DNA from: Actinomycetes bacterium
GTDB lineage: Bacteria; Actinomycetota; Actinomycetes; Nanopelagicales; Nanopelagicaceae
DNA: 64,000 bases
Assembly (NCBI GenBank): GCA_947383695.1
Contig: OX376642.1
Location: 868,001-932,000, forward strand
Reading direction: 5' to 3'
Shown: positions 59,461-64,000 of the stretch, piece after piece
Position numbering within the stretch: the first letter of the stretch is position 1
Layout: the number at the start of each line of letters is the position of its first letter
Position numbers and translations under genes: made by a program
Notes under the pieces: model-generated
Database searches by the model: none
Seen by the model: only the letters and a program-made list of their open reading frames with translations
Told to the model about the DNA's origin: nothing

Positions 59461-60192
59461 TTATCCTTTGCGTGTGATGAAGTGGGTAGGTGCTTGTACG
59501 ACTGTTATCTCTGCAGATGAATACTTTTGAACTGTGCCTGTCACCGCTCTTACTTGAGCGTTATGGCTGTACTCGCCATTCCATGATGTAAGTAGTGAAA
59601 CTACATACGTGCCTGGCTGTGAATAAATGTGGCGGATCGACCCTGAGGGATATGGGCCGCCATTGTCTGTTGTTGAGTAAAAAGTTCCATCTCCAAAACT
59701 CCAGGTAAATGAAGGTCGCAGCGCTACATCGACAACCTCACCGATGATGTCGACCCGCGATTGAAAAAGTGATGGAAGATCGCACCAGAAATACACCGGA
59801 ACATTGATAAGCGGTTCAAATCCCGGTTGATAAGCAACTCCTGCAGTTGGAACTAATTGAGTGAGACGATCACTGAGATTGACTCGGGTACTTGTTTTCT
59901 TAATCCGTGGTTTATAGGTGCGTTTGATTACAGGCTTTTTAACAACGGGTTTAGCTGCGACCGGCGGGAAGAACAAAGGCCTGACACTTGGTTTTGGTGA
60001 GGGTTTCACCGTTGTTTTCTTCGGTGCCTGACTGATGCTCTTTTTCGCAGTTGTAGCGCCTTTGCGGGCTTCGATAATTATCTGGTCGTTATCTGTGTAG
60101 ACATTGATGCAGGCTTTTTCTGCACATGGATCAGCGACAGCTAATGGTGGAAATGCGAGGGCAAGTGTGAGTATCACTATGAGGGCGACCAT
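59461..60192 (-). CDS. Secreted PKD-domain protein
   Basis: This 243-residue exported protein has a hydrophobic signal segment (LIVILTLALAFPPLAVA), then two Cys (CAEKAC). A Lys/Pro-rich linker (about 45-105) and a C-terminal PKD-like domain with WSFGDG and HIYSQPGTYVV follow. The ATG at 60192 is chosen because TATGGT lies seven bases before it; in-frame ATGs at 60204 and 60273 are alternatives, the last overlapping the NUDIX start. The basic linker suggests wall attachment. The ligand is unknown. Confidence 0.72.
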   Translation of the reverse strand: MVALIVILTLALAFPPLAVADPCAEKACINVYTDNDQIIIEARKGATTAKKSISQAPKKTTVKPSPKPSVRPLFFPPVAAKPVVKKPVIKRTYKPRIKKTSTRVNLSDRLTQLVPTAGVAYQPGFEPLINVPVYFWCDLPSLFQSRVDIIGEVVDVALRPSFTWSFGDGTFYSTTDNGGPYPSGSIRHIYSQPGTYVVSLLTSWNGEYSHNAQVRAVTGTVQKYSSAEITVVQAPTHFITRKG

Positions 60193-60271
60193 GTGCGGCA
60201 CCATAAATCGCCCCACAGACGGCGGTGCTACCCACTGCGCGAACTGTGGATAGTTGTGACAGGCTACGAAC

Positions 60272-60739
60272 ATGGCAGCGCGCGATGGTGATGGATGGGT
60301 GGAATGCGCCTGCGGAAATAAGCACTGGGGCCTTAATGGTGCAGCCGGAATAATGATTGTGCGGGGTCACGAAATCCTTTTGCAACATCGAGCACCGTGG
60401 GTACATAACGGCGACACCTGGGGCATTCCCGGTGGTGCCCGTGATTCTCATGAAACAACTATTGAAGGTGCATTTCGCGAAGCTATTGAAGAGACCGGAA
60501 TTGATACCGATTTGCTAACCCCGCTGCACACCTTTACCGATGATCATGGTGATTGGAAGTACGAAACCGTTATCGCCCAAGCTGCAACTGGATTAGTAGC
60601 TCACGAGGTAAATGATGAATCCCATGAAGTTCGTTGGGTAGATATTGAAAAAGTTGATGAACTGCCTTTGCATCCCAGCTTTGCAAAGTCCTGGCCTGAG
60701 CTAATGAAATTGCTTAATAACTTTATCGGCCCACGTTAA
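60272..60739 (+). CDS. NUDIX hydrolase
   Basis: This 155-residue protein contains the complete Nudix box: G-x5-E-x7-REA-x-EETGI starting at GGARDSHETTIEGAFREA. It hydrolyses a nucleoside diphosphate linked to another group; the substrate is unknown. A CACGNKHWG segment in the N-terminus could bind a metal. It converges with the ABC ATPase gene, overlapping it by 39 bases. Confidence 0.9.
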   Translation: MAARDGDGWVECACGNKHWGLNGAAGIMIVRGHEILLQHRAPWVHNGDTWGIPGGARDSHETTIEGAFREAIEETGIDTDLLTPLHTFTDDHGDWKYETVIAQAATGLVAHEVNDESHEVRWVDIEKVDELPLHPSFAKSWPELMKLLNNFIGPR

Positions 60740-61291
60740 TTCTGTTTCGGTGCTGTGTGCCACAACGACAACGGTGGTTCCCGTTTCGGCCAAGTTTTGC
60801 AATAAGGAAATGATTTTTCTACGACTATAAATATCCTGAGCGGCAAGTGGTTCATCGAGTAAAAGTACAGGTGTCTTTTGTGCGATCGCTTGAGCAATTG
60901 CGACTCGTTGAGCTTCTCCCCCAGACAAAGTTGTCACTAAGCGATCTGCAATTTCAGCAAGGCCCAGCGCATCAATGACGTGGGTTGAATCTCCTGCCAT
61001 TTCAATCATTTCTCGGACAGTAAAGCCCAGTGTAAAGCTTTGATTTTGAACCGCCATGGCTCGAATCGATGCCAAAGTGCTCGCAGAAGTAAGGATTGGA
61101 TGTAGATCATCAATGGTGATTGTTCCCTTGTCGGGTGCAATGTCTCCGGCGATTGCGGCTAATAAGGTTGATTTACCGCAGCCATTAGGGCCAACGATTA
61201 CAGTTATCGACCCTGCCGGTATTTGCTCTGAATAATCATAAATAATTTCGCGGCCATCGCGCACAATGGTGATCTCATCAATAGTAATCAT
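60701..61291 (-). CDS. ABC importer ATPase, heme/siderophore type, short
   Basis: This 196-residue ATPase has Walker A VGPNGCGKST, signature TLSGGEAQRVAIA, Walker B VLLLDEPLA, and H-loop VVAHST. FecE/HmuV/BtuD-type proteins are usually about 250-270 residues, so the C-terminal part is missing while all ATPase motifs are present. It overlaps the permease gene by 4 bases and forms an importer with the two genes upstream. Confidence 0.88.
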   Translation of the reverse strand: MITIDEITIVRDGREIIYDYSEQIPAGSITVIVGPNGCGKSTLLAAIAGDIAPDKGTITIDDLHPILTSASTLASIRAMAVQNQSFTLGFTVREMIEMAGDSTHVIDALGLAEIADRLVTTLSGGEAQRVAIAQAIAQKTPVLLLDEPLAAQDIYSRRKIISLLQNLAETGTTVVVVAHSTETELTWADKVIKQFH

Positions 61292-62259
61292 TGAGTTCTC
61301 CAGACATTGTTTTTGAAGGTTACTAATGCGATCAGTACTGGAGCACCTAATAACGCTGTTGCCAGACCGATGGGAAGTTCATTTGGCTGAGCGATGGTGC
61401 GTGAAAGAGTGTCGGCAACTACAACAATTAATCCACCGATGATTGCGCTGTGGGCGACTAGCCGGCGGTGGGACGGGCCGTAGATAAAGCGGGCGATGTG
61501 CGGGGCTGCTAAACCGATAAAGGCAATGGAGCCAACGGTGCTCACCGCACCACCAGCCAAGATCGATAAAGCAATCAAGGCAACGAGGCGAATTCTGGAA
61601 ACATTAACACCTAAGTGAAATGCGGTTGCATCACCAAGAGAAAGTCGATCAAGTGCAGGGGCAATTTTCCAAGCAATCGCAATACCAATAACAGTTGTGA
61701 GCGCAATACCGATGAGATTCTCAGAAGTAACGAGTGCGAGAGAACCAAAACTCCAGAATGAGATCGAACGAGCATCTGCACGAGAAACCATCGCCGCTGC
61801 AATTCCGACAAGAGAGGTAAAGATTGCAGAGACTGCAATTCCCACAATAATCAAGGTAAAGGAGGAAAGTGCACCACGAACCGCTGCCAATCTAAAGGTA
61901 AGAGATGTTGTCAGAAGTGCGCCAATAGTTCCGCAGGCAATTGCACCTAGTGATCCCACATCAACTAACCCTGAACTAATCGCAATGACTGCACCAAATG
62001 AGGCACCTGCTGCAGTGCCCAGAATTGCAGGCTCTGCAACCGCGTTATTGCAGGCACCTTGAGCCAATAAACCAGCCACACCTAAAGCGGCACCAACAAT
62101 TACCGCTGCCGTTACACGTGGAAATCTGATCTGCCACAAAATCTCATTGCTCCCTGGATTTACCAGTGCTGACCAAAAGGAATTGATCTGCGTTGCGCCA
62201 AGATATAAAGACAGGAGAAATGCAACAGCTAAGAGCACCGCTGGGAGCAACTTTCTCAT
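61288..62259 (-). CDS. FecCD/BtuC family ABC permease
   Basis: This 323-residue permease has nine to ten helices. It has WQIRFPRVTAAVIVGAALGVAG, GTAAGASFGA, and GLAAPHIARFIYGPSHR in the coupling region, all typical of iron-complex, heme and cobalamin permeases. It sits between the binding protein and ATPase with 4-base overlaps. Heme is the best guess from the binding protein. Confidence 0.92.
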   Translation of the reverse strand: MRKLLPAVLLAVAFLLSLYLGATQINSFWSALVNPGSNEILWQIRFPRVTAAVIVGAALGVAGLLAQGACNNAVAEPAILGTAAGASFGAVIAISSGLVDVGSLGAIACGTIGALLTTSLTFRLAAVRGALSSFTLIIVGIAVSAIFTSLVGIAAAMVSRADARSISFWSFGSLALVTSENLIGIALTTVIGIAIAWKIAPALDRLSLGDATAFHLGVNVSRIRLVALIALSILAGGAVSTVGSIAFIGLAAPHIARFIYGPSHRRLVAHSAIIGGLIVVVADTLSRTIAQPNELPIGLATALLGAPVLIALVTFKNNVWRTQ

Positions 62260-63158
62260 GGAGCAACCTTACTTATAGCGGTTGCTAAGGCTTGAACTAA
62301 GGCTGGAGTCCGCGGACCAAAGGAGAGCAGCAATGAATCATCCACATCGATCACCGCTGCATTTTTGCCAGCATTTGTTTGCGCTACTCCTGGAAGATTC
62401 AGTAAACCCTGAACTCCCCCGACAGATTCCAAACCTTTACTCATAACGAGAATGAGATCGGGATTAAGGGCTGCCAGACTTTCTGCGGTTAATGTATTGA
62501 ATGGTCGATCTAAATTTTGAGCTCCCACATCTACAGCACCTACCGCTTTTAATAATGAGTCTGCGCCAGATCCAGAGCCACCGATCAAATACACCGCTGA
62601 AGTTCCTCGTAAGTATAAAAAGGCGACTCGTGGAGAGTTGTTCACCCTTGAAGTTTTTAATGATGACTCCATTTGTTGAACCAGTAACTCTGCTTGTGCA
62701 TATGCGCCGACCGCCTTGCCGACCGCTCTGACCTTTGCAGGAAGATCGCTCAGGCTCCAACTTTCTGGTGTCTCAACTACAGGTATTCCAGCTTTTCTGA
62801 TTGTCTCAATCGCAGCCTTTGGACCAGTCGATGCATCAATGATTACTAGGTCAGGTTTAAGTCCAAGTACTTTTTCGGGTAACACCTGATGTCCAGATGT
62901 AACTATTGGAATATCGGATAGTGAATCTTCGGTACTAGAAATATCTCGACCCACCATGATTGATTGGCCGTTTAAGGATTGAATGATTTCAGCGACTCCG
63001 TTTGCTAAAACAATGACGCGTTGTGCTGTAAATGCGGTTGGTGCATCAAGTGAAATCGATCTCACATCATCCTGAGAAATTGTGTAACTGCTAACTGGGC
63101 GGTTATCGGCGCACCCTGATAACAGGGCAACAAGCGCGAAAATCACCACTTTTCTCAT
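62256..63158 (-). CDS. Substrate-binding lipoprotein, HmuT-like
   Basis: This 300-residue solute-binding protein of the helical-backbone type has a lipobox LLSGC (Cys16). Residues RVIVLANGVAEIIQSL and VLGLKPDLVIIDASTGPKAA match heme-binding HmuT-type proteins. The heme-versus-siderophore choice is inference. ATG 63158 has CACACT six bases upstream. It leads the three-gene importer operon. Confidence 0.85.
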   Translation of the reverse strand: MRKVVIFALVALLSGCADNRPVSSYTISQDDVRSISLDAPTAFTAQRVIVLANGVAEIIQSLNGQSIMVGRDISSTEDSLSDIPIVTSGHQVLPEKVLGLKPDLVIIDASTGPKAAIETIRKAGIPVVETPESWSLSDLPAKVRAVGKAVGAYAQAELLVQQMESSLKTSRVNNSPRVAFLYLRGTSAVYLIGGSGSGADSLLKAVGAVDVGAQNLDRPFNTLTAESLAALNPDLILVMSKGLESVGGVQGLLNLPGVAQTNAGKNAAVIDVDDSLLLSFGPRTPALVQALATAISKVAP

Positions 63159-63170: not shown

Positions 63171-63183
63171 CCAAAACTTTCTA

Positions 63184-63206
63184 CGACAGAGATCTGTGTC
63201 CTGTCG
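63184..63206. promoter_or_regulatory. Inverted repeat CGACAG-N11-CTGTCG
   Basis: Perfect 6-base arms around an 11-base centre that itself contains AGATCT. It lies between the divergent importer operon and the secreted-protein gene, upstream of both -10 boxes. It is a candidate operator for an iron- or heme-responsive regulator acting on both sides. Confidence 0.45.
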
Positions 63207-63230
63207 GATAAGTGTTTTTAAGGGCGGATT

Positions 63231-63242: not shown

Positions 63243-63716
63243 ATGAAGAAGATGTTGGCACTTGTTATGGCGATCGCTATTGCCTCAATGCCCTCATCTG
63301 CTGCGGCATCGATTAAAGGATCGCAGGGTCAGGTTTTAACGGTTTCAAAGAGTTCGGTGAGAAGCGGCTCGTTCGTTACGGTGAATGGAAAGTATTTTGA
63401 TGAAACTGTCGGAATTTACCTAGCCTTCTGTGTCATCCCACCCAAGGGACAAGCACCAACCCCCTGTGGTGGTGGCATTAACAAAGCTGGTCTTGGTGAA
63501 GCATCCTTTTGGATCTCATCCAATCCCCCACCGTATGCAGTTGGTTTAACGCAGGAGTTTTTACCTGGAGGACGATTTACTCAAAAGGTAAAGATCTCGA
63601 GGAAAATTGGAAAGTTTGATTGCACCAAGGTTAAGTGCGCAATCACAGTTCGTGCAGATCACTTGCGAAGCAATGATCGAAGTTCAGATCTATTTATTCC
63701 TATCACCATCAAATAA
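63243..63716 (+). CDS. Secreted Ig-like protein with two-cysteine motif
   Basis: This 157-residue exported protein has a signal peptide (residues 1-22, MKKMLALVMA ... AAAS). A beta-rich mature part follows with V-x-GKYFDETVGIYLAFC. The motif C63-V-x2-P-x-G-x2-P-x2-C75 is shared exactly with the next gene. A second Cys pair occurs near the end (DCTKVKCAI), with the look of neocarzinostatin-like folds (CTKVKCAITVRADH). It is divergent from the heme-type importer and may bind the same ligand. No known family is assigned with confidence. Confidence 0.72.
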   Translation: MKKMLALVMAIAIASMPSSAAASIKGSQGQVLTVSKSSVRSGSFVTVNGKYFDETVGIYLAFCVIPPKGQAPTPCGGGINKAGLGEASFWISSNPPPYAVGLTQEFLPGGRFTQKVKISRKIGKFDCTKVKCAITVRADHLRSNDRSSDLFIPITIK

Positions 63717-63724
63717 GGAGAAAA

Positions 63725-64000
63725 ATGAAGAAGCTCGTTCTTGTTGCATTAATTGGTTCACTGTTAGTCCCGGTATCAGCCCAAGCTGCAGAAACTAAGT
63801 TTGTCGGCGGACCTTTGACGAATCTTGAATCACAGGGAGCGACAATTAACATCATGCTCTCAAATGTCCCAGCAAAGGGTGGGCTCTACATTCAACAATG
63901 CGTTGAAGCACCGGCAGGATCTCGTCCCGCGGTATGTAATAAAGCGGTGGAGCTATGGATTTCTGACGCTCGTGGAGCTTCATTTTTACCCACTGACACT
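63725..64000 (+). CDS. Secreted two-cysteine protein, 3' end off the window
   Basis: This reading frame is open from ATG 63725 to the right edge (92 residues, no stop), so it is partial. A GGAG site lies just before the ATG. Signal peptide: MKKLVLVALIGSLLVPVSAQA. The mature part contains C59-V-x2-P-x-G-x2-P-x2-C71 with GLYIQQC before it, the same spacing as in the preceding gene (GIYLAFC). The two are tandem paralogues, 8 bases apart. The end of the protein is not visible. Confidence 0.75.
   Translation, partial: MKKLVLVALIGSLLVPVSAQAAETKFVGGPLTNLESQGATINIMLSNVPAKGGLYIQQCVEAPAGSRPAVCNKAVELWISDARGASFLPTDT

Follow-up and report, generated by a model that had tools for sequence, protein, structure and literature searches.

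The right end of the window raises the question of what two secreted-looking proteins with one and the same 13-residue, two-cysteine motif do beside a heme-type importer. The window is the whole stretch of DNA analysed, 64,000 nucleotides (G000:C1:868001-932000), and belongs to a host genome (G000) of 1.43 Mb in one contig. The two genes, NCS1 and NCS2, form a tandem which is divergent from the HmuT-HmuU-HmuV operon of the minus strand and faces, on its other side, a convergent TetR gene lying just past the right edge of the window (Table 1). The original prediction placed the pair back to back with the importer, which is the arrangement found, and allowed for more tandem copies past the right edge, where there are none, the gene after NCS2 being the convergent TetR. 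The reading favoured here, and held to be fairly probable, is that the pair takes part in heme uptake as secreted proteins of neocarzinostatin fold, which capture heme for HmuTUV independently of HtaA.

Table 1. Position of the importer genes, the NCS genes, their cysteine motifs and the intergenic dyad in the window.
Feature	Position	Strand	Remarks
HmuV-type ATPase (P0005)	60701..61291	-	196 aa; best NCBIfam match is a heme ABC transporter ATP-binding protein, under cut-off
HmuU-type permease (P0004)	61288..62259	-	FecCD family
HmuT-type heme-binding lipoprotein (P0003)	62256..63158	-	PDB matches, ligand residues
Dyad ACGACA-N13-TGTCGG	63183..63207		hmuT-NCS1 intergenic; putative shared operator/promoter element
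NCS1 (P0001)	63243..63716	+	157 aa, secreted-looking, neocarzinostatin-fold; homologues class-wide
NCS1 two-cysteine motif, Cys63-Cys75	63429..63467	+	First conserved Cys pair of the domain
NCS2 (P0002)	63725..64000, truncated by window edge	+	Secreted-looking; 318 aa in the genome
NCS2 two-cysteine motif, Cys59-Cys71	63899..63937	+	Pair not conserved among other NCS2

By eye, the N-termini of NCS1 and NCS2 are signal-peptide-like, a short positively charged segment being followed by hydrophobic residues and an AxA-type site, and NCS2 continues from a neocarzinostatin-like N-terminal domain into a beta-rich (Ig-like) C-terminal part. The motif letters are CVIPPKGQAPTPC in the NCS1 reading frame and CVEAPAGSRPAVC in the reading frame from 63725 (NCS2), and both fit C-V-x2-P-x-G-x2-P-x2-C exactly. 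The motif is common to the two proteins because they are homologous, with 34% identity between NCS1 and the N-terminal part of NCS2 (E 2e-12). The shared motif of the original prediction is present in the window's two proteins, and so are signal-peptide-like starts, but the exact motif as a family signature is rejected: only three of 40 NCS1 and one of 38 NCS2 proteins carry it, the window's own two counted. It represents the loop that the domain's first Cys pair encloses and is no ligand signature.

Conservation was read from two alignments. Alignment A1 contains 37 NCS1 rows, the window's own and 36 of the 39 fetched NCS1 loci, and leaves out L055 (a near-duplicate) and L068 and L069 (long); A2 contains 30 NCS2 rows and leaves out L039-L041, L042 (contig end), L055 (near-duplicate), L066, L071 and L072 (short single-domain second gene), and L068 and L069 (without NCS2). 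Both cysteine pairs of NCS1 are invariant (37/37), and so are Y59, W90, Y98, R137, D139, H140, R146 and D149, in 37 of 37 rows; a wider set has these eight residues in 15 of 15. The first cysteine pair of NCS2 is complete in 16 of 30 rows and has lost both Cys in 13; the His is retained in 25 of 30, and NCS2 may not bind heme and may assist instead. L068 and L069 show a longer NCS1 (296-303 aa) with a Pro/Thr/Ser-rich linker and extra residues, a separate NCS2 being not found in these two loci, and in L066, L071 and L072 the second gene encodes a 146-aa single-domain NCS2-type protein which does not have the C-terminal beta-rich part. G000 contains a third NCS paralogue (L033:9730-10236; G000:C1:1057259-1057672, minus strand), unlinked, about 125 kb off, with a degenerate and not the exact form of the motif. 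By eye, its neighbours are arsenate reductase-like and aquaporin-like genes, and no heme importer was recognised among the ORFs of the 19.5 kb around it.

Neocarzinostatin is the carrier protein of an antitumour antibiotic, and its fold is best known from the enediyne antibiotics and as a small-molecule carrier. The original prediction recognised no described family in the pair, and this has to be corrected: weak PF00960 matches, Foldseek and VIA-align make the neocarzinostatin fold recognisable. The AlphaFold (AF2) model of NCS1, with a mean pLDDT of 83.6, has the neocarzinostatin beta-sandwich. Foldseek with this model returns macromomycin and C-1027 at the top, the sole two at E < 0.001, and neocarzinostatin next, and VIA-align against macromomycin gives Z 11.4 and rmsd 2.2 with 100 aligned. 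The top ten VIA-align rows range from Z 9.1 to 11.4: nine are named members of the neocarzinostatin family and the tenth, 4jw3_A, is titled otherwise; the best unrelated row has Z 8.4, and apokedarcidin, a further family member, Z 6.6. For the whole NCS2 model, Foldseek returns mostly multi-Ig proteins along the full length, and neocarzinostatin entries start at rank 32. The predicted models are neocarzinostatin-like over NCS1 and over the N-terminal half of NCS2.

At the sequence level, the Pfam scan matched NCS1 and NCS2 with no family, PF00960 giving no match at E up to 1 and its gathering score not being reached, and the NCBIfam enediyne chromoprotein model matches NCS proteins weakly, far under its cut-off. 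PF00960 matches weakly 19 of 37 NCS1 homologues (best 1.8e-4) and two of 30 NCS2 homologues (best 3.5e-6), and two of eight class-level proteins scanned pass its cut-off of 25 bits (L118, 29.2; L106, 31.8). Two others of the eight, L111:9634-11139 and L117:9211-10035, show an NCS-like stretch by profile and no PF00960 match. NCS2 alone has no match among PDB sequences at E up to 5, and the only solved sequence relative found is ThiX (E 2.3e-7 and 3.1e-10, with profiles). That NCS1 and NCS2 are apoproteins for an enediyne or another bioactive chromophore, as the predicted fold and the chromoprotein model could suggest, is hardly credible, since NCS1 lies next to the heme-type importer in all 39 fetched family loci that have it and in 59 of 69 class genomes.

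The importer itself is heme-type by its binding protein, which the original prediction had rightly called HmuT-like. Its best PDB matches include solved heme-binding proteins (5gj3, E 1.7e-39; 5az3, E 3.4e-39), and its His90, Tyr182 and Arg184 correspond to His141, Tyr240 and Arg242 of Corynebacterium glutamicum HmuT, in which, according to PMC4926363, heme is ligated by His141 and Tyr240 with Arg242 as partner. Among the family HmuT proteins, Y182 and R184 are present in 39 of 39 and H90 in 36 (Met in three), and all three ligand residues are invariant in a class set of 21 rows. That the importer, together with its partners, handles another ligand, for instance cobalamin or a ferric siderophore, could be read from the best NCBIfam match of HmuU, which is BtuC, under cut-off, and from the many ligands that Peripla_BP_2 and FecCD span; it is quite improbable in view of these HmuT matches and conserved ligand residues, of the heme oxygenase and HtaA genes in homologous loci, and of the missing HemB and ferrochelatase matches in G000.

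Within the host's family, the freshwater Nanopelagicaceae (acI), strong NCS1 matches are found in 60 of 151 genomes and strong HmuT matches in 61, and 60 have both; in the sole genome with strong HmuT and without NCS1 (G114), the contig stops 5 bases beyond HmuT. The cuts between strong and weak were set by eye at gaps in the match lists: 65 genomes have any NCS1 match, five weak ones being dropped (E >= 7.5e-12: G004, G050, G051, G060, G126), and 70 have any HmuT match, nine being dropped (E 8e-11 or worse). Absence of co-occurrence with the importer in relatives was the result that would have told against the original prediction; all 60 NCS1 genomes have HmuT. Among the best 80 of 363 matches, NCS1 is present in 'Ca. 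Planktophila versatilis', 'Ca. Planktophila lacus' and strain IMCC25003 (L160). The loci of 40 relatives were fetched, 39 of them chosen for having NCS1. HmuT is the divergent neighbour in all 39 NCS1 loci, NCS2 is the next gene in 37 and TetR follows in 34. The 40th locus (L073) shows a lone NCS2-type paralogue and TetR, in a genome without HmuT match.

In G000 the block lies between a Nudix gene and a DinG gene, which also flank it in the fetched loci of genera g1 and g4 and in one locus labelled g2, and were not found beside it in the remaining fetched loci; the block therefore occupies different chromosomal sites in different genomes. The empty site was studied in 14 hand-picked genomes, the window's own and 13 block-less ones, of which G139 gave no DinG match. 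Nudix and DinG abut in 11 of the 12 block-less genomes having DinG, and thus the module behaves as a unit; in the twelfth, G003 (locus L213), only TetR is left between them. G003 has HemB and ferrochelatase, and its lone TetR gives the impression of a block that has lost its importer and NCS genes. Beside the block, positions 59461-60273 (minus strand) encode a fast-evolving, secreted-looking protein with 39-61% identity among relatives; in the loci showing both, DinG, on the other side of the block, is 78-85% identical.

The hmuT-NCS1 intergenic region comprises 84 bp, and its dyad is one mismatch from CCGACA-N13-TGTCGG. With at most one mismatch, CCGACA-N-TGTCGG occurs in 35 of 40 family intergenic regions, the window's own counted, against 0.14 expected in base shuffles, a comparison that is somewhat circular, as the consensus came from the same 40 regions, and to which kinship adds. 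The spacing is 13 in 32 of the 38 family regions with a dyad at up to two mismatches. The dyad came from counting shared 6-mers and 8-mers; a palindrome search region by region gave nothing consistent, and the near-palindrome of the window's own region was equalled by 7 of 100 shuffles. Genome-wide in G000, the pattern has two matches against three for the reversed control, the other match having a different spacing, so a wider regulon is not claimed. The dyad is not outstanding in 18 class-level loci: the best one, in L116 (one mismatch, spacing 12), lies within the hmuT match and is equalled by 3 of 100 shuffles, and each of the 17 others has at least 7 of 100 shuffles as good. TetR is not adjacent in five of the 39 family loci (L035, L038, L039, L040 and L042, one of them at a contig end), and these keep the dyad. 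The simplest reading is that the dyad would be an operator bound by the TetR encoded next to it; alternatively, it could stem from divergent -35 boxes that overlap.

The host appears, from its gene content, unable to make heme: neither HemB nor ferrochelatase (HemH) has a match in G000, each being matched in eight of 151 family genomes, and G000 has COX1 (heme-copper oxidase). Heme auxotrophy or dependence on outside heme is reported for Nanopelagicales or Planktophila in PMC10202952 and PMC12381374, and PMC7527133 states that a heme synthesis pathway has been recorded for none of the Nanopelagicales. The statement that no Nanopelagicales makes heme does not hold for all, since seven of the 151 family genomes match both HemB and ferrochelatase. 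All seven are without strong NCS1 and HmuT (Fisher p 0.04, kinship ignored). Of the 144 family genomes that do not have both heme enzymes, 84 show no strong NCS1. Many of the 84 are incomplete drafts, and the complete genomes G061 and G085 are among them. Many family genomes, these two included, have no HemB or ferrochelatase match and no such importer either, so the family must have some other way to obtain heme. The near-complete family genomes G061, G051 and G003, which do not have the block, still have COX1. This bears on the idea that NCS1 and NCS2 are respiratory accessory proteins like C. glutamicum ThiX, which draws on ThiX being the only solved relative found and is very improbable, given the absence of the block from these three COX1 genomes, the linkage of the NCS genes to HmuTUV and an NCS1 N-terminus that shows, by eye, no Cys for a lipobox.

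Across the class, the NCS1 profile search gives matches in 69 of 394 genomes, and HmuT lies within 1.6 kb of NCS1 in 59 of the 69. The family contributes 18 of its 19 NCS1 genomes to this count, and the rest of the class 41 of 50. The family exception is the lone paralogue of G051. The nine exceptions outside the family are G186, where NCS1 and HmuT lie on two contigs, each close to a contig end, three genomes of genus g35 (G188, G491, G284), with HmuT elsewhere and far from the NCS genes, and five genomes (G278, G257, G424, G350 and G345) which, like G051, show no HmuT at threshold; G278 contains NCS genes and TetR, the importer being absent within 17 kb. HmuT genomes without NCS1 number 61 of 124 in the class. 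In 20 class-level relatives, a hand-picked part of the 50 non-family NCS1 genomes, heme oxygenase is located within 5 kb of NCS1 in ten and elsewhere in four, and was not found in six; none of eight acI genomes has it, G000 included. Of 31 genomes scanned for HtaA, eight of them acI, 12 have it, and no acI genome is among the 12. G267 has two HtaA domains and a neocarzinostatin domain, both above cut-offs, in one protein, and in G294 and G240 the NCS and HtaA profiles match within one reading frame. L111:9634-11139 and L118:9600-13178 are single proteins uniting HtaA and neocarzinostatin-like domains, that of L111 having also a WxL-like end, under its cut-off.

Alternatively, NCS1 and NCS2 could be non-heme-binding surface adaptors, which dock hemoproteins or hold HmuT or the wall, HmuT alone taking the heme. 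NCS domains do occur in long multi-domain HtaA surface proteins, several with LPxTG-like ends (by eye), in which CR domains can supply the heme binding, and NCS2 has no invariant His and carries an extra beta-rich half. However, the scanned acI genomes have no HtaA (0/8) for an adaptor to serve, the polar and aromatic invariants of NCS1 (His, two Tyr and Trp) are kept in the class-level rows, and the fold is best known as a carrier of small molecules, so that the adaptor role is considered unlikely. Heme capture, as heme-capturing proteins of a reduced uptake system, the function first proposed for the pair, is the best supported reading, and the pair is tied to the importer in relatives.

The favoured model would run as follows. 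Outside the membrane, NCS1 and NCS2 would pick up heme, either free or from hemoproteins that have been released; the captured heme would be passed to the lipoprotein HmuT, and HmuUV would import it intact from HmuT, for the respiratory chain. The two proteins would hold the position of the corynebacterial HtaA/CR-domain hemophores, HtaA being absent here, and the importer and NCS genes would be under one shared dyad, most simply a TetR operator. The predicted fold, the co-occurrence, the absence as a unit, the links to HmuTUV, heme oxygenase and HtaA in relatives and the missing HemB and HemH matches form the computed support. From these we infer that NCS1 itself holds heme, perhaps via the invariant R-x-D-H (His140) and/or Tyr59/Tyr98, that NCS2 acts together with NCS1, that heme is transferred in the direction given, and that TetR and the operator are a pair. 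A wider reading, tentative and somewhat less probable than not, is that domains of the neocarzinostatin fold serve throughout the Actinomycetia as a type of extracellular heme capture in its own right, beside HtaA in large genomes and replacing it in heme-auxotrophic freshwater and other small-genome lineages; the enediyne apoproteins would then be offshoots of a family of heme carriers.

Among lake bacteria, 'Ca. Planktophila' and its relatives rank with the most abundant according to PMC7527133, which also calls for evidence of hemophore secretion or heme receptor binding. The block supplies candidate secreted heme catchers, an importer and a control element for Nanopelagicaceae, including IMCC25003. 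If heme capture holds true, a fold known mainly through enediyne antibiotics would gain a physiological role, and the Actinomycetia would have, in addition to HtaA, a second module for handling heme outside the cell.

Compared with known systems, NCS1 and NCS2 resemble the neocarzinostatin family (PF00960) in predicted fold (VIA Z 9-11), domain size and two Cys pairs, and differ from it in that both miss the Pfam family, adjoin a heme importer and show the invariant R-x-D-H...R..D. The HtaA/ChtA CR hemophores (PF04213) are secreted or surface proteins of heme uptake with HmuTUV, as proposed for NCS1 and NCS2, and in some large actinobacteria NCS and HtaA domains share a locus or a protein. CR domains are beta-sandwiches in which a Tyr binds heme, assisted by a His or another Tyr (PMC12494546). 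In contrast, the HtaA domain is matched neither in NCS1 and NCS2 nor elsewhere in G000, and a divergent HtaA as the identity of the pair is rejected. The C. glutamicum HmuTUV system shares with the window a binding protein, permease and ATPase in one operon and the heme ligand residues, and differs from it in the divergent NCS genes, the TetR neighbour and the absence of HtaA and heme oxygenase from G000. The heme cluster of Streptomyces atratus contains a heme oxygenase, HtaA-domain proteins and a heme ABC transporter, the same neighbour types as the class-level NCS1 loci, and the available part of its description names no neocarzinostatin-like protein (PMC10060970). ThiX (7qhm chain M) is similar in sequence across the domain, including the D-H and the second Cys pair. 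It is a lipoprotein of the C. glutamicum bcc-aa3 supercomplex, the soluble domain of which is missing from the resolved structure, and the available part of PMC8795186 gives it no assigned activity and does not make it a known heme carrier; the signal region of NCS1 shows no lipobox Cys by eye. CwpG of Actinoplanes missouriensis is a sortase-dependent cell-wall protein candidate with a neocarzinostatin-like domain, and PMC13251363 mentions neither heme nor HtaA. Among the best-ranked matches of a search of the freely accessible literature, the neocarzinostatin fold is nowhere tied to HtaA or heme uptake. NCS1 and NCS2 are a real, conserved component of actinobacterial heme-uptake loci, and they probably work like an HtaA hemophore, share the neocarzinostatin fold by prediction and do not belong to the HtaA family by sequence.
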